A DNA stretch of 64,000 nt from Thermodesulfobacterium geofontis OPF15 (GTDB taxonomy: Bacteria; Desulfobacterota; Thermodesulfobacteria; Thermodesulfobacteriales; Thermodesulfobacteriaceae), in contig NC_015682.1 of the NCBI RefSeq assembly GCF_000215975.1, forward strand, positions 1,488,001-1,552,000, read 5' to 3'. Shown piece by piece: positions 642-8,121 of this stretch. Each line of letters opens with the position of its first letter. Within the stretch, counting starts at the first letter, position 1. Below the pieces are notes generated by a model. It was given only the letters and a program-made list of their open reading frames with translations. It made no database searches and was not told where the DNA came from. Made by a program: the position numbers and the translations under genes.

Positions 642-1856
642 TTAATGCTCAGATTTATACTTAGGATGTTCATAAAGTACAGGCATACGATTTAACACAA
701 AACGATAGGTCAAAACTAATAAAGTAACTACACCTGCACTAAGAGCTATCTCAGTCCAAGCTGGATAATATTTTTGAGAGAAAGGTACATACCATTTATA
801 AGCTATTAAACACACATTTAAACGATTTACTATTACTCCAAAAGCAGTTAACACTGCTCCTAATTTTACAAGCCAAACAATTCTATTTCTAACAGCAGAA
901 GTAAACATAAGTGCTGGAATAAAAACAAAGGCAATTAATTCAACTGCATACCAAAATCCATAAAATCCTTTTAGATAATGCCACTTTTCATAGTGGGCAA
1001 AATCAAGAAGTTTTAAAATTAAATAAATATAAAGGGCACAGGCTGCAGCTTTTCCTAATCCAATAAGCTTTTTGTTAAAATCTTCTTCATCAAAGTCTTT
1101 TATTTGATGCTTAAAAGCTTTATGAGTAATAGTTCCTTCAATAATAACAATTGAAATTCCTCCAAAGATTGCTGAAATAAGAAAAAAAGGAGGTAATAAT
1201 GCTGAATACCATAAAGGATGAAGTTTATAAGGAACCACTAAATATAAACCACCAAGAGCTGACTGATGTCCTCCAGCAATAATCACTCCAAAAATAGTTG
1301 CCCAAATAACAAGTTTAGCAAAGAAATCACGAGCTCTTTTTAAATCTAACCATTCAAATACTACCGGAGCAAATTCTATAAGACAAATAATTGTATAAAG
1401 GAAGAAATGCCAACCTACTAAGAATAGAACAGAAGAAAAGCCCCAAGACCATATTAATAAATTATATAAATTGTAATATCTTCCCAAATCAAATAAAAGT
1501 GCAAAAATAGCAAAAACATATCCAAGAAGACTTGATAAAGCTACAGGTTTTGCAAAATGGTGGTATTCTTTAAGACCAAATAAATGAATTGCAGTCCCCA
1601 CTGTAAGCCCAGGTGCTGCAAGAGCAATACCTACTAAAATATCAAAACCAATCCAAAAACCCCAGGGGTATTCATCTGAAAGATTTGTAGCAGGACCTAA
1701 TCCATAAATAAGTCTATATACCATAGCATAAATTCCGAAAATTAAAATTATAAGGGCAATCATATTTCCAATAGTGATATTATCTTTTATGAATTCTCCA
1801 AATGTTCTTCCCATAAGAATTTTTTCTCTAAACCAAGAGGTATTATTTCTTTCCAT
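642..1856 (-). CDS. hmcC: NrfD/HmcC-type quinol-interacting membrane subunit
   Basis: Integral membrane subunit of the Hmc-type redox complex, expected to exchange electrons with the menaquinone pool. The roughly 404-residue protein is almost entirely hydrophobic, with about ten predicted transmembrane helices and the NrfD/PsrC-like feature YPWGFWIGFDILVGIALAAP near the N-terminus. I chose the ATG at 1856 because AGGAGAGGG lies just upstream; the same frame stays open to 1877 with weaker support. It overlaps the end of the ferredoxin subunit by 14 bases, so the two are translationally coupled. It is the last gene of the operon that begins with tmcD. DsrP or another NrfD paralogue would look similar; the neighbours make HmcC the best name. 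Confidence 0.85.
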   Translation of the reverse strand: MERNNTSWFREKILMGRTFGEFIKDNITIGNMIALIILIFGIYAMVYRLIYGLGPATNLSDEYPWGFWIGFDILVGIALAAPGLTVGTAIHLFGLKEYHHFAKPVALSSLLGYVFAIFALLFDLGRYYNLYNLLIWSWGFSSVLFLVGWHFFLYTIICLIEFAPVVFEWLDLKRARDFFAKLVIWATIFGVIIAGGHQSALGGLYLVVPYKLHPLWYSALLPPFFLISAIFGGISIVIIEGTITHKAFKHQIKDFDEEDFNKKLIGLGKAAACALYIYLILKLLDFAHYEKWHYLKGFYGFWYAVELIAFVFIPALMFTSAVRNRIVWLVKLGAVLTAFGVIVNRLNVCLIAYKWYVPFSQKYYPAWTEIALSAGVVTLLVLTYRFVLNRMPVLYEHPKYKSEH

Positions 1857-2862
1857 GGCCCTCTCCTTTTTCCTCATTTATGGATTGTTTTTTCTTGCGG
1901 GATTTTGAAATTTGATAATAGGCTCCAAAAACTAAAGGCCAAGCTCCTACCACTTCAAAAAGTTTTACCATAAATAAAAATCTCTCACTATATTCTGGTA
2001 TAGGAGTTTCTTCAAGTTTTGGAAATCCTATTTCTTCAAAAGGAACTGGCGATATATAAAGCCAACTTGTCCCACCTACTTCTTTTTCTCCATATACATG
2101 AGGAACATATTTACCGGGATTATTATGAATCCTTTCCCAAGCTATTTTAATAATTTCACTTCTTTTACCAAAAGTTAAAGCTCCTGCAGTACAAATCTCT
2201 ACACAAGCAGGGACTTTACCTTCAACTATTCTATCATAACACATGGTGCATTTTGTAATTTGTGGAGTAATTGGATCATAATATTCATAGGCAGGGATAT
2301 CAAAAGGACAAGCTACCATACAATATCTACATCCAACACATACACTTTTATTATAAATAACAGGACCTTCAGGGGTTTTTCTGTAGGCTTCAACTAAACA
2401 GGCAGAATAACAGCCAGGATGTACACAATGCATACACTGTCTTTTTACATAAAGAGGTGTTCCATCTTTGGTATAAAATCTATTTACTACAGTAAAATTC
2501 CCAGCATGAGGTCTTCTTATTTTATCAAAAACTGAAGGCTTTTGATGAACAGAAGCCTCAAACTCCTTTAATGGTCTATTAGGATTTTGGTTCCATTCAT
2601 TACATGCCCATTCACATCTTCTGCATCCAATACACTTAGAAATATCTACTAAAACTGCATAAGGTTCTTCTGGAGGGGGCAAATGCTTTTTCTTTCTTTC
2701 CTCATAAATTTTCCAAACTTTTTCATTAGCTTTATTCCCGGTAGCATAAATAGATGGTGCATCTCCTTTACTGTATGCCTGAGAAATTGAGGGTTTAGTA
2801 ATTATTAATGTCCCAGCTAAAGCTCCCAATCCTTTTAAAAATTCCCTTCTATTTAACTTCAT
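1843..2862 (-). CDS. hmcB: HmcB/DsrO-type periplasmic four-cluster ferredoxin subunit
   Basis: Electron-transfer subunit with a twin-arginine-type leader (NRREFLKG at residues 4-11), so it is probably exported folded. Cysteine groups consistent with four [4Fe-4S] clusters are visible. They are CIGCRRCEWAC at 77-87, CMHCVHPGCYSAC, CVGCRYCMVAC, and CTMCYDRI continuing to VPACVEIC. A hydrophobic stretch near the C-terminus (VVGAWPLVFGAYY) may anchor it in the membrane, a trait of HmcB-like subunits. The 339-residue length fits the family. In the operon it sits between the HmcD-like peptide and the NrfD-type subunit, the usual pairing. It should pass electrons between the 16-haem cytochrome and the membrane subunit. 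The distinction from DsrO or TtrB/PsrB paralogues rests on context. Confidence 0.88.
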   Translation of the reverse strand: MKLNRREFLKGLGALAGTLIITKPSISQAYSKGDAPSIYATGNKANEKVWKIYEERKKKHLPPPEEPYAVLVDISKCIGCRRCEWACNEWNQNPNRPLKEFEASVHQKPSVFDKIRRPHAGNFTVVNRFYTKDGTPLYVKRQCMHCVHPGCYSACLVEAYRKTPEGPVIYNKSVCVGCRYCMVACPFDIPAYEYYDPITPQITKCTMCYDRIVEGKVPACVEICTAGALTFGKRSEIIKIAWERIHNNPGKYVPHVYGEKEVGGTSWLYISPVPFEEIGFPKLEETPIPEYSERFLFMVKLFEVVGAWPLVFGAYYQISKSRKKKQSINEEKGEGHGKK

Positions 2863-3007: not shown

Positions 3008-4741
3008 TTATCTTTTTATTCCAAGCACATCTGTTGGTAAAGGTCTTGGACTCTTTTCTTTATGGCAATCGGTACATCTATGAGTAGGTTTCTCAAGTCT
3101 CATATTGTCATGACAACCAATACACTGCACATGGTATGCAGATTGTAATTTTAACTTATTAGGATTAACAGGGTTAAAATACTTAGGATGACAATTCTGA
3201 CAGGATGGAGGTATATCTTTTTTAGCTTCAGCAGAAGATTTTCTTTGATGATGACATCCCTCACAAAGAACTTTTAAATCATTATGAAAATACCTTGCCA
3301 ATTTATTATTATTGGAAATATCTACTAATTTATCTATAATTTTGCGATGTGGAAAATCTGCAGGTTCAAATTCTTTTTCTAATACCTTTATTTTAATTTC
3401 CTTTTTAACTACTTGAGGATCAAGCCCAGCTGTTGAAAGTGACGGAGGTAAAGTAACTTCTTTTTTACCTGTATGACATCTATCACATACTTCTTTATTA
3501 GGTTCCTTAGCTTTAATATCTATTAGAGGAATAAATTTGTGACATCCTGCACAATCTTTTTCCAGTTTCTTTTTATTATGACATCCTGCACAACTATGTT
3601 CTGAAAAAGGAGCATGATAGGCATCTACTAAATTTACCCAAGCTCCCTCAGGAATCCCTTCTAATTTATGACAATCTTTACAGGCTCTTAATCTTTCATG
3701 ATGACAAACTCTGCAGGTTTTATGATAATATTCATGATTTTTATGATTAAAACCAACACCTTTCATTTTGGCATTTTCTATGTTTATAAAATAGGTTTCC
3801 TTTTGTCCTCTATCCGGACGCGGAACTTTCTCAAGATCAGCTATAGTTCTATATTTTCCTGTATGGCATTTTCCACACTCAAGTGGAGGAGCTTTTTCTC
3901 CTTCCTTTTTGCTAACTTCCATTTCTTTATTAATTTTTATATGACAGCTCAAACATCTTTCATGAGCAGTTTTTTGATAAGAAAGTCTCTTTTCTGTAGT
4001 AACTTTAACTATTTGAGAAAGTTCTGATCCTCTCTTTTTCTTACTTAGGTCATGACAATAATAACAAGATTCCTCTGTTCCATTTTGATAAACTAATTTT
4101 TTTTCTTTTAAATCATAGGTATGGTGACAAAGACCACAGTCTTTTTCTCCTGTTCTTTCTTTAAGCTTTGTTTCATGGTCATAATGAAATTTAGGATCAA
4201 ACTCAACCAATGGATACTTTATTTTAACAAATTCCTTTTCCTTTACATGACAATCTCCACAAGTAAGAGGACCTGCTTTTTTCTTCTCTTTTAACTTTTC
4301 TTTATGACAACCTATACATTCATCATGATAGGCTTTCTTATAAGCTTCTTTGTCTAACTTAACTATTTTCTTGGGAAATTCAAAAACTAAAACATCTCTT
4401 TCTTCTGTTTTCTTTTCTTTTATTATTTCATCTTCTTTTTTTATCCTAGTTAACTCTTCTTTTTTCTCTCTGTGACAAACACTACATGTTTCCCACTCTT
4501 TCTTTCCTTCTTTTTTAATGGCCTCTACATGCTTTTTATGATCAAAAATAACCGGGGGTCTTTCTAAGGAGCCAAATATTTCTGTATGAGCAATAACAAT
4601 TTTATCCTCCGGCTTAGTAATTATTATTTCCTTAGAAGGTGGAATAGCCGGTGCAGTATAAACCTGTTTTATTCCATAGACAATAAGGATTAAATAAATT
4701 AAAGCTCCCAAAAGTATTAAAAATAGTGTTTCTTTTCTCAT
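3008..4741 (-). CDS. hmcA: 16-haem high-molecular-weight cytochrome c (HmcA)
   Basis: Membrane-anchored periplasmic electron reservoir of the Hmc complex. I count exactly 16 CxxCH haem-binding motifs in 577 residues, from CSVCH near residue 87 to CTDCH near the C-terminus, matching the 16 haems of the HmcA family. Additional scattered histidines can supply the distal ligands. The N-terminus is one hydrophobic helix (residues about 5-28) without an obvious cleavage site, so it may remain as an anchor. Lysine and glutamate content is very high, common in thermophile cytochromes. Ribosome site AAAAGGAG precedes the ATG. It is encoded between the HdrD-like subunit and the HmcD-like peptide. Cytochrome maturation genes are not in the window. 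Confidence 0.93.
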   Translation of the reverse strand: MRKETLFLILLGALIYLILIVYGIKQVYTAPAIPPSKEIIITKPEDKIVIAHTEIFGSLERPPVIFDHKKHVEAIKKEGKKEWETCSVCHREKKEELTRIKKEDEIIKEKKTEERDVLVFEFPKKIVKLDKEAYKKAYHDECIGCHKEKLKEKKKAGPLTCGDCHVKEKEFVKIKYPLVEFDPKFHYDHETKLKERTGEKDCGLCHHTYDLKEKKLVYQNGTEESCYYCHDLSKKKRGSELSQIVKVTTEKRLSYQKTAHERCLSCHIKINKEMEVSKKEGEKAPPLECGKCHTGKYRTIADLEKVPRPDRGQKETYFINIENAKMKGVGFNHKNHEYYHKTCRVCHHERLRACKDCHKLEGIPEGAWVNLVDAYHAPFSEHSCAGCHNKKKLEKDCAGCHKFIPLIDIKAKEPNKEVCDRCHTGKKEVTLPPSLSTAGLDPQVVKKEIKIKVLEKEFEPADFPHRKIIDKLVDISNNNKLARYFHNDLKVLCEGCHHQRKSSAEAKKDIPPSCQNCHPKYFNPVNPNKLKLQSAYHVQCIGCHDNMRLEKPTHRCTDCHKEKSPRPLPTDVLGIKR

Positions 4742-4754
4742 ATTCTACTCCTTT

Positions 4755-6149
4755 TTATCCTTCTTCAGGTAACATTTCTTCAGGAATATACATAGTATTA
4801 ACTATAAGTTCATCAAAAAACATGGTTTTTACAGGTAATTTGTAATAATTTATTATATCTTTTATCCCTACGTTACAATTATGACAGGGTGTAATTACTA
4901 TTTTTGCTCCTGTTGCCATAATTTGTTCAGCTTTTATTCTATTTCCTCTTGCCTTATGAGAAATCCACTGAGCTAATACAGCAAGACCTCCCCCTGCATT
5001 GCAACAGAAATTATGCTCCCTATTTGGATACATTTCTCTAAAATCTTCGCAACATTGCTCTACAATATATCTAAACTTTTCTGCTGCACCTGCCCTTCTT
5101 ATAACATTACAAGGATCCTGTAAAGTTACAGGTTCTTTTATTCTTTTTGCAGGATCTATCTTAATTCTTCCACTAACTAAAAGTTCATAGTAAAATTCAC
5201 CTGGATGCATAGCTTCAAAAGGTGTTTCTTTATATCCTAACATAGGTGGTGCCACATAACTTGTGGCAAATCTCGGGTGCCCTCACTCAGTTAAAATTAA
5301 TTTTTTAGCCCGCAGTCGTGCTGCATTATCATAAAGCCCCCTTACAATTCTTTGCATAGTAAAGAAGTCACGAATAAACATGGGCATATTACTACTATCC
5401 CAAGAATCATTCATAGTAACCATTGTCCACTTCACACCAGCTACCTGAAATATTTTAGCAATACGGTCTATATGATAAACTCCTGCCTTTGGTTCAGCAG
5501 CAAGGGGATACCATATAACTTCAACTCCTTCTAAATCCATAGGAATTCTTAAATTCTTTAATTCATACATGCCCTCTTCTTCTCTCCAAAATAGCGTATC
5601 AATATAATCACTTTGGGACATCCATACCTGATTCAATGTAGCCATAAAAGCTTGATTCATCTCAAACATTCTTTGAGGAACAACCCCTAAAAGGAAACAA
5701 AATCTTCTTACTAATCCAATAATAAAGGTAATATCTAAACCAAAGGGACAATATAAACTACAACGATGACATATATTACATTCAGTAAATGCTATTCTTG
5801 CAATATCATACACTAAACTTGGTTCTACTTTCCCTTTTCTTTTCATCAATTCCCAAACAGTCATTTTTACTTTTGAAACAGGTGCATAGGTTGGATCCCT
5901 ATCATTTGATAAATACCACTGGCATGCTTCGGCACAAAGTCCACAATGTATACATGTTTCTACAATAGCTTTAATTCTTGCAGTTTCTTTCCCAAAAACT
6001 GCTTGATAAGCTTTTTCTATTTTTTCTGGTGTTATTCTTTTTATTGTCTCATCAAGACCAGGATCCTCAATTTTAGGTCTTACATATTCAGGAAAATGAG
6101 AACTTACATATACTTCTTTTTCTTCTGAAACTTCCGGCTTAATTGCCAT
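4755..6149 (-). CDS. hmcF: HmcF/TmcB-type HdrD-like iron-sulfur subunit, predicted selenoprotein (TGA at 5283-5285 read as Sec)
   Basis: Cytoplasmic subunit related to heterodisulfide reductase HdrD. Read through the in-frame TGA it gives 464 residues, the normal HmcF size. Two [4Fe-4S] motifs are present, CIHCGLCAEAC at 66-76 and CNICHRCSLYC at 124-134. The second CCG domain has C347, the pair C382-C383, and C422/C425 (PCHNC). The TGA is residue 289, in LILTE-U-GHPRFA, where the family has a conserved ECGH. Frame is kept on both sides with no sense-codon gap. The downstream half has no plausible ribosome site or ATG of its own (first alternative is a GTG at 5255). A SECIS-like hairpin follows the TGA. 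Alternatives are a true nonsense mutation or a base-call error in a TGC or TGT cysteine codon. The ribosome site GGGGGG precedes the ATG. Confidence 0.85.
5250..5285 (-). promoter_or_regulatory. Predicted bacterial SECIS element with UGA codon
   Basis: In the transcript the UGA (5285-5283) is followed by a perfect 7-base-pair stem, UGCCACA (5268-5262) with UGUGGCA (5256-5250), closing a 5-base loop AGUUA (5261-5257). The loop begins 21 bases after the UGA. Known bacterial SECIS elements have the apical loop roughly 16-37 bases after the UGA and a guanine among the first two loop bases; both hold here. The hairpin is inside the coding sequence, so its bases also encode conserved protein. It would bind SelB to direct selenocysteine insertion. 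The selA, selB, selC and selD genes are not in the window. Confidence 0.75.
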
Positions 6150-6170
6150 TATTTATCCCCCCTTATTTTT

Positions 6171-6842
6171 TTACCAATCCTTTGTTTTCCAACTTGCTGC
6201 TTGAGAAGCCATCCAAGCCCTTGTAAAGAAGAAGTAATACATATGGGTAAGTCTTGTAAATGGAATAGCTATAAGCATTATCTCCCCAAATAGAATATGA
6301 AGATTTAACATAGCCCTATAAGGTAATAGCCATTGATAATGAGCTAAAAAACCCGTTAAGAAAGTAAAAAGACATATAAATACAAAGATAAAATCAGAAT
6401 AGGTAGTAACAAATCTAACTGTAGGATCAAATATTCTTCTTCCAATAAAAAACAAACACCCAATAATTACAAAAATTGACCAAACATCTGCTACAGTCTC
6501 TGGTAAAGTCCACCAAGAAATTTTCCAAGATTCATACCATAAAGCATTATGGGCATAAAGAAAAATAGGAATAAAAACTATACCTGTATGGAAAACAAAA
6601 GTAAAAAGGGTAAAGTAAGGTCTAAGCCTCCAGCTTCTTGAACCAAAAGGAATTAACCAATGAAAATAAGATTTAATAGCTGCTTTAAGATTAATAAAAG
6701 GTAACACAACTTTCTCTTTCTTAGCTAAATTTATTAAGGTGTAAATTCTATAAATACTTCCAACTATAAAAACTATAAAAGTTATCCATACCATTGGACC
6801 TCTTAAAAAACTGTAAAGAGCTACACTTTCTAAAAACCCCAT
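6171..6842 (-). CDS. hmcE: HmcE/TmcC/DsrM-type cytochrome b membrane subunit
   Basis: Membrane cytochrome b of the Hmc/Tmc complex, related to the gamma subunit of respiratory nitrate reductase; it would bind haem b and interact with menaquinone. The 223-residue protein shows about five to six transmembrane segments, with histidines in or near helices (FTLFTFVFHTGIVF, FLAHYQWLLP, LNLHILFGEIMLIAIP, RLTHMYYFF) that could be haem ligands. It lies 21 bases upstream of the HdrD-like gene, the usual arrangement for cytochrome b plus CCG-domain partners (HmcE-HmcF, TmcC-TmcB, DsrM-DsrK). Ribosome site GGGAAGG precedes the ATG. The choice among these names is by context; tmcC would be equally defensible because tmcD is the next gene upstream. 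Confidence 0.87.
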   Translation of the reverse strand: MGFLESVALYSFLRGPMVWITFIVFIVGSIYRIYTLINLAKKEKVVLPFINLKAAIKSYFHWLIPFGSRSWRLRPYFTLFTFVFHTGIVFIPIFLYAHNALWYESWKISWWTLPETVADVWSIFVIIGCLFFIGRRIFDPTVRFVTTYSDFIFVFICLFTFLTGFLAHYQWLLPYRAMLNLHILFGEIMLIAIPFTRLTHMYYFFFTRAWMASQAASWKTKDW

Positions 6843-6858: not shown

Positions 6859-8121
6859 TTATATTTCATTAACAGAAAAAACTTTTCTGCAATACTTACC
6901 ATCTTTTATACATCTTACAAGAATTTTAGAACCATCCGGACTAAAAACAGGGTCCCATAACCATTCATAGGCTTCTTTACTAACTTTTCCATCAACTACA
7001 ATAAAATATTTTCCGTCTTTTTCTGCTCTAACAGCTATCTTATCCCCTGTTGGAGAAAATATCGGATCCCATACATTATCAAACCAAGTTTCCCAAGGAT
7101 ATCCGTCAACTGCTATGGTCCATTTATTATTATGTTTTACTACAGCAGCTACCTTTTTACTATCTGGACTAAAATGAGGATCTAAAACCATCTGATTAAA
7201 AGTAATCTTCCAAGGATTCCCATCTATAGCTACAGTCCATTCTCCCGAAGCTAAAGCTACAACTGCTGCTATTTTTTTACCATCAGGACTAAATTTTTGT
7301 TTCCAAACTTGCAAAAAGTAAGGCCATATAGGATCTCCATTTTTAGCCAAAGTCCATCCTTCTTGTGTTTGAACAGGTGCAATTACATCAGAACTCTTAG
7401 GTACAAAAATAGGCTCCCAACAACCCCCGAATTCTTTATTCCAAGTTTTACCGTCAACTGCTATAGTATATTTAGAAAGATCAGTCATTACACAAACTGC
7501 TACATGATTCCCATCATCGCTAAATACACCACCATAAATACTCATAAATGAATTATCCCAGGGTATACCATCAACTGCAATAGTATAATTTTTTTCATAA
7601 AACCAAAAAATATCTAATTCTCTTCTTGGATTTATCTGCACACGAGAAGCTGTTCTTTGACCATCAGGGCTCATTATTACGTCTCTTACTTCAACAAAAA
7701 GATTTTCCCAAGGTTGATCATTAAGACAAACTCCTTGGGTCATTTCTGGAGTTCTAAAATTAATGGCTATACTTTTGGTGTCAGGACTTAAAGTTAGATT
7801 CCATGCCATATCAAAAGTATTTTCCCAACGAGTTTCACCTTTCTCTCCTATTATTAAATTCCACTGATAATCTGCATAACCAAGACAAATAGGCTCATTA
7901 TCTAAATTAAACTTAAGAGAATACATCCTATCAAAAAGTTCTTCCCAGGTCTCTCCATTTATACATAAGGTAAATTTACGAGTTTCAGGTTGAACAATTC
8001 CTGCAATTTTTTCTCCATCAGGAGAAGGAGTAAGTTCTCTTATATCAATAAATTTTTCCTTCCACTCATTTATATTTGCAATTACTTTATTCTTAGTCTC
8101 CCAATCCCAACCTTCTCTCAT
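6859..8121 (-). CDS. tmcD: TmcD-like tryptophan-rich beta-propeller protein
   Basis: A 420-residue soluble protein built of repeated blade-like units. FSPDGKKIA or SPDSKKVA alternates with WTIAVDGNPW or FIVVDGKV, about eight to nine times across the length. It is unusually rich in tryptophan. There is no signal peptide and no transmembrane segment, so it should be cytoplasmic. Length and tryptophan richness match TmcD of the Desulfovibrio Tmc complex (about 420 residues), whose role is not known. It is the first gene of the operon, just behind a recognisable promoter, and has ribosome site GGGAGG. Finding it beside a 16-haem HmcA rather than the tetrahaem TmcA makes this operon a mixture of the two described types. 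A general WD40-like propeller is the fallback call. Confidence 0.78.
   Translation of the reverse strand: MREGWDWETKNKVIANINEWKEKFIDIRELTPSPDGEKIAGIVQPETRKFTLCINGETWEELFDRMYSLKFNLDNEPICLGYADYQWNLIIGEKGETRWENTFDMAWNLTLSPDTKSIAINFRTPEMTQGVCLNDQPWENLFVEVRDVIMSPDGQRTASRVQINPRRELDIFWFYEKNYTIAVDGIPWDNSFMSIYGGVFSDDGNHVAVCVMTDLSKYTIAVDGKTWNKEFGGCWEPIFVPKSSDVIAPVQTQEGWTLAKNGDPIWPYFLQVWKQKFSPDGKKIAAVVALASGEWTVAIDGNPWKITFNQMVLDPHFSPDSKKVAAVVKHNNKWTIAVDGYPWETWFDNVWDPIFSPTGDKIAVRAEKDGKYFIVVDGKVSKEAYEWLWDPVFSPDGSKILVRCIKDGKYCRKVFSVNEI

Follow-up and report, generated by a model that had tools for sequence, protein, structure and literature searches.

A predicted selenocysteine codon in the TmcB/HmcF-like subunit of a Tmc/Hmc-type complex of Thermodesulfobacterium geofontis

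Does an in-frame TGA in a putative electron-transfer gene of Thermodesulfobacterium geofontis OPF15 end a protein, or does it encode a selenocysteine (Sec) within one? The window analysed here is a stretch of 64,000 nucleotides of the single genomic contig, and on its minus strand a frame running from 6149 to 4755 encodes 288 amino acids, a TGA at 5285-5283 and then another 175 amino acids in the same frame before closing on TAA (Table 1). The TGA is the sole stop within the frame, and an ORF caller splits the gene into two listed ORFs. A sequence-only reading of the window had the frame running on past the TGA within LTE-TGA-GHPRFA, and our translation reproduces this exactly, with the TGA as residue 289 of a 464-residue read-through protein in the setting ILTE-U-GHPRFA. 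The same reading had found no ribosome site for the downstream half; indeed, the earliest internal starts (GTG at codon 299 and ATG at codon 303) have no Shine-Dalgarno-like sequence before them, and the ATG at 6149 has AAGGGGGG. Several lines of evidence, set out below, make us nearly certain that the TGA is a Sec codon in a TmcB/HmcF-like subunit of a Tmc/Hmc-type complex.

Table 1. Features of the tmcB/hmcF-like locus, in window coordinates.
Feature	Position	Strand	Details
hmcC-like, NrfD membrane subunit	642..1877	minus	NF045714 412.6 bits, under cut-off 550; PF03916
hmcB-like, periplasmic ferredoxin	1843..2862	minus	NF045715 345 bits, under cut-off 420
hmcA, 16-haem cytochrome c	3008..4741	minus	16 CxxCH; NF045713 502.1 bits, cut-off 400
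tmcB/hmcF-like gene	4755..6149	minus	464 aa if TGA is Sec; coordinates include the stop codon
CCG domain PF02754, intact	4863..5129	minus	residues 341-429; predicted noncubane [4Fe-4S] site
SECIS-like hairpin	5250..5268	minus	UGCCACA-AGUUA-UGUGGCA; loop starts 21 nt after UGA, G is second loop base
His291	5277..5279	minus	aligned with EtfD His583, a noncubane-cluster ligand there
In-frame TGA, predicted Sec	5283..5285	minus	codon 289; context E-U-G-H
[4Fe-4S] dicluster domain PF13183	5736..5963	minus	residues 63-138; 8 invariant Cys
Shine-Dalgarno-like AAGGGGGG	6157..6164	minus	read from sequence; about 7 nt upstream of ATG 6149
tmcC, membrane cytochrome b-type anchor	6171..6842	minus	NF045723 242.4 bits, cut-off 240
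tmcD	6859..8121	minus	NF045725 466.9 bits, cut-off 440

Against NCBIfam models the read-through protein ranks TmcB first (NF045724, 498.6 bits), HmcF second (NF045711, 352.4 bits) and DsrK third (NF045796, 161.9 bits), each under its equivalog cut-off (735, 750 and 400 bits, respectively), and the protein is therefore named TmcB-like. Its cysteines are residues 66, 69, 72, 76, 124, 127, 130, 134, 151, 347, 366, 367, 382, 383, 422 and 425. A 47-row alignment of relatives has 20 invariant columns, among them column 289, the eight [4Fe-4S] cysteines and the five cysteines of a complete C-terminal CCG motif (347, 382, 383, 422 and 425). The TGA had been described as falling on a conserved CCG cysteine: the column is indeed an invariant family cysteine, but it is not one of the five C-terminal ligands. 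Position 289 is the residue remaining in a degenerate N-terminal CCG half which, as had also been claimed, holds no other cysteine (none within about residues 207-330).

The gene lies in an operon ordered TmcD-TmcC-TmcB(Sec)-HmcA(16 haems)-HmcB-HmcC, the last two being HmcB-like and HmcC-like. TmcC and TmcD adjoin TmcB, as expected of a Tmc complex. The tetrahaem TmcA (TpII-c3) was sought in the operon and is absent; the cytochrome gene there is the 16-haem HmcA, with a TmcA score of 85.9 of 114. TmcB and HmcF of Desulfovibrio-type complexes share with our protein the domain layout, the partners TmcC, TmcD and HmcA and all ligand cysteines, whereas the T. geofontis protein has Sec rather than Cys at 289, scores under the equivalog cut-offs and belongs to an operon that blends Tmc and Hmc partners. 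The order from TmcD to HmcC recurs twice in T. hydrogeniphilum, each time with Sec, and again in a further genome (G214), and at several Nitrospirota loci the 16-haem gene directly follows the Sec gene.

We followed column 289 through relatives from 198 genomes of the phylum and through 80 named loci retrieved with a nine-row alignment, and found Cys or TGA as its only states. Every row of the 47-row alignment has C or U there, so that the family alignment proposed as a check by the sequence-only reading yields no unrelated residue. Of an initial set of 49 loci, 17 (the T. geofontis gene counted) have a TGA exactly at this column, as do 10 of the 80 named loci. Trees require at least four Sec/Cys switches at this position. 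The TGA-bearing genes include a second TmcB-like gene of T. hydrogeniphilum (L078), an HmcF-like group (L052, L054, L055) and HdrA/Mvh-linked and related copies (L056-L062, L066, L067). Two DsrK-type genes that adjoin a DsrM-like gene (L063 in G093 and L064 in G019; L064:407-1657:-) also carry an in-frame TGA at column 289; L064 scores 527.7 bits against the DsrK model, above its cut-off of 400, and these two genes are predicted to place Sec in a central electron-transfer subunit of sulfite reduction. TAA or TAG codons that appeared to lie inside some relatives were rejected as interior stops, the only ones within the aligned protein sitting at its extreme ends (L025, L040), and a second TGA in L078 and L051 is explained as the stop of the upstream tmcC. 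One HmcF-like gene (L053, G091:C192:677-1903) has Cys at column 289, but in its first [4Fe-4S] motif a TGA replaces the second Cys (CAH-TGA-AIC); the gene may have decayed, the assembly may be wrong here or Sec may serve as a cluster ligand, and its genome has selB.

A TGC or TGT cysteine codon that has mutated or been misread, leaving a broken gene, differs from TGA by one base, and the window alone cannot tell the two apart. The comparison with orthologues can. The TGA is kept at the same codon in 10 of 10 orthologues across two phyla, four from Thermodesulfobacterium (T. geofontis included) and six from Nitrospirota, the MAG-derived members of this set being drafts. The part of the protein encoded past the TGA (C half) has dN of 0.07-0.09 and dS of 0.69-0.86 when compared with its two closest orthologues (88-90% identity), and dN of 0.15 and dS of 0.90 against a 70% identical one. 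Across the genus its dN/dS is 0.08-0.17, which is not as expected of a gene cut at residue 288, and purifying selection acts on both sides of the TGA; such selection past the TGA practically excludes a pseudogene, a sequencing error or a split gene. Sequencing error, which had been named as a way in which the Sec reading could fail, is further opposed by the approximately 3,740x Illumina coverage of the OPF15 assembly (PMC3624685) together with the same codon in nine further orthologues. With no further in-frame stop and an intact operon in relatives, we give a broken or misread gene next to no probability; it is refuted by this comparison.

In a tree, the Thermodesulfobacterium Sec genes are nested within those of Nitrospirota, which suggests that the Sec version of the tmcB-like gene moved between the phylum of Thermodesulfobacterium and Nitrospirota. 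Among the Nitrospirota MAG loci, L093-L098 hold Sec TmcB orthologues (55-69% identical), and L140 and L142 represent a second Sec lineage that is independent of these.

Just past the UGA the transcript can form a SECIS-like hairpin, which spans bases 17-35 (U of UGA being 0) in all ten Sec orthologues and has a seven-pair stem and a five-base loop, NGNUN. All seven pairs form in all ten of these genes; in 15 Cys homologues two to five of the seven form, and none is fully paired. Only 7 of 138 invariant residues have the same codon throughout the ten genes, and three of these belong to the stem (Ala295, Thr296 and Val299). Among invariant residues with fourfold-degenerate codons, 4 of 47 are codon-identical throughout, and again three are stem codons (hypergeometric P 0.001). 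GCC (8.6%) and GTG (6.8%) are minor codons in the AT-rich T. geofontis genome. Residue 297 varies (Ser, Arg, Cys), yet the stem is retained, and in one orthologue (L020) an outer pair has changed from U-A to C-G. Compared with shuffled sequences, the T. geofontis tmcB-like hairpin has no extra stability (z about -0.03 to -0.3); since the lone hairpin is not unusually stable, the argument rests on comparison and conservation. The bSECIS limits attributed to Zhang and Gladyshev (2005) are reportedly 16-37 nt for the loop distance, and the loop here, at 21 nt with G as its second base, agrees with a hairpin just past UGA that has a G within the first two loop bases.

The conserved hairpin also bears on whether two proteins are made, an N half of 288 amino acids ending at the TGA and a C half of 166 amino acids starting separately at GTG 5255, much like split HdrB/HdrC parts. 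The ORF caller does return two ORFs, and the C half contains a complete CCG domain. However, the internal GTG lies inside the hairpin and the internal starts have no Shine-Dalgarno-like sequence; relatives are single polypeptides, and a plain split would keep neither the TGA on an invariant Cys column nor the hairpin. We consider separate products very improbable, and Sec insertion at codon 289 to be strongly supported by these sequence comparisons.

The sequence-only reading had proposed a search of the genome for selA, selB, selC and selD. The T. geofontis OPF15 genome (one contig of 1,634,377 bp) has all of them: SelA (546 bits), SelB (394 bits), SelD (345 bits) and a tRNA-Sec with a TCA (UCA) anticodon, so that absence of selB or tRNA-Sec is not the case here. 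SelB also scores above its cut-off in 16 of 18 other genomes checked. Given this gene set, SelB would read the TGA with Sec-tRNA(Sec), aided by the hairpin just downstream. The selD gene itself has an in-frame TGA followed by a very stable hairpin (z -3.45, L016:1531-1578) with the loop AGUUU, a loop that is also seen in several tmcB orthologues. Two FdhA genes are present (C1:499468-502491 and C1:1446173-1449196), one a Sec copy (V-U-H) and one TGA-free. Together with selD and fdhA, the tmcB-like gene brings the predicted selenoprotein genes of this genome to three or more. The organism is a sulfate reducer that grows at 83 C and lives on H2 or formate (PMC3624685); its habitat is a hot spring.

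T. geofontis also encodes a Cys paralogue of TmcB (C1:1457013-1458341, 56% identical). The Sec/TGA-free FdhA pair parallels this Sec/Cys TmcB pair, and about 8 kb separates the TGA-free FdhA gene from that of the Cys paralogue. Such pairs are what one might see if read-through is regulated, the full Sec protein being confined to times of ample selenium, with a truncated 288-residue product or the Cys paralogue serving when it is scarce; Methanococcus offers a precedent in paired Sec/Cys isoforms under selenium limitation (cited in PMC2702500). The Cys paralogue (L089) lies outside any Tmc/Hmc operon, though, and may therefore not replace the Sec protein. Regulation of this kind, which we regard as possible but tentative, is compatible with the Sec-codon explanation rather than opposed to it.

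What might Sec289 do? No structure of any TmcB, HmcF or DsrK was found in our search. An AlphaFold model of the protein, built without cofactors (pLDDT 91.9), matches mycobacterial EtfD (9OJN) best, with Z 25.7 and a shared fold over residues 45-461, followed by LutA and HdrB (HdrB Z 17-18). A profile alignment (identity about 17-20%) places C289-G-H291, U-G-H in T. geofontis, over C581-P-H583-C584 of EtfD, where the noncubane [4Fe-4S] cluster is completed by His583, and a second, linear [3Fe-4S] cluster has Cys581 and 584 among its ligands (PMC13083937). EtfD differs in having this second cluster and a fused membrane domain and in lacking Sec. Because Sec289 stands two residues ahead of the aligned noncubane-ligating His, at the place of a ligand Cys of the second EtfD cluster, the selenol probably works beside the noncubane cluster, and because the first CCG half has no other Cys, the second cluster has apparently been lost, leaving one selenol beside the remaining cluster. 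Sec289 could alternatively be a direct cluster ligand, either the sixth noncubane ligand or a ligand in a remnant second cluster, as the role of EtfD Cys581 next to His583 would suggest; yet for the other second-cluster ligands of EtfD (Cys503, 538 and 584) the first CCG half here offers no matching Cys, and EtfD fills its noncubane site without the aligned Cys, which leaves direct ligation rather unlikely.

We infer from the EtfD chain, ordered D1-D2-D3-D4-haem b (PMC13083937), that Sec289 is located at the cytoplasmic, substrate end of the cluster chain. The sequence-only reading had put a selenolate at the electron-transfer site next to the cytochrome b partner; a redox-site Sec is in keeping with our analysis, but its position would be away from haem b. 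By homology, the product would be a 464-residue cytoplasmic subunit of a Tmc/Hmc-type transmembrane complex that moves electrons between HmcA, with its 16 haems in the periplasm, the membrane subunits and the [4Fe-4S] clusters and single noncubane cluster of the TmcB-like protein. The end of the chain with its selenol(ate) would meet a partner in the cytoplasm, for which a thiol/disulfide like that of DsrC is a candidate. As to the exact chemical role, a redox-active selenol(ate) beside the noncubane cluster is the likeliest reading, one that we hold at about even odds. With little confidence we put forward a wider proposal for the TmcB/HmcF/DsrK type: the Cys or Sec from the lost second cluster would do the job of that cluster, so that in enzymes with one noncubane cluster a cytoplasmic disulfide or trisulfide (e.g. 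DsrC) would be shared between the two, one half going to the cluster and the other to Sec289 as a selenosulfide. If this is true, the repeated Cys-to-Sec switches at column 289 single out the residue at which catalysis takes place throughout the family, in DsrK as well.

CCG-type Fe-S oxidoreductases had been said to be predicted selenoproteins in some genomes, and the literature agrees. The prediction of Sec in an 'Fe-S oxidoreductase (GlpC)' dates from 2006 (Zhang, PMC1794560), an Fe-S oxidoreductase-like selenoprotein with a UGH motif is tabulated in a 2026 review (PMC13188914), and HdrD4 and HdrF2 of Desulfobacterium autotrophicum HRM2 are predicted Sec proteins (PMC2702500). The T. geofontis gene, with its in-frame UGA directly before Gly-His in a CCG/GlpC-type protein, has these features in common with the HdrD-like UGH group (GlpC, COG0247 / PTHR43551), which is found in sulfate-reducing Deltaproteobacteria/Thermodesulfobacteriota. 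The described operon of that group is hydrogenase-linked, glpC-hdrA-frhD-frhG-frhA (PMC1794560; PMC13188914), whereas the gene described here is flanked by tmcC and hmcA, in an operon for a transmembrane complex, and occurs in a hyperthermophile as well as in Nitrospirota. HdrD4 and HdrF2 are likewise HdrD-type CCG proteins whose genome also encodes Cys paralogues, but HdrF2 has its own transmembrane domain and neither is described within the Tmc complexes of HRM2. A literature search that covered few subscription papers returned no description of Sec in TmcB, HmcF or DsrK; as the UGH selenoprotein family has been predicted since 2006, the T. geofontis gene adds a member, in an operon type that we did not find described.

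One practical consequence is that standard ORF calling halves the TmcB-like subunit in genomes of Thermodesulfobacterium and Nitrospirota. In sulfate reducers, TmcB, HmcF and DsrK connect electron transport in the membrane with sulfur chemistry in the cytoplasm, a step of unsettled chemistry, and the repeated replacement of Cys by Sec at one invariant column points to the reactive residue of these HdrD-like subunits.
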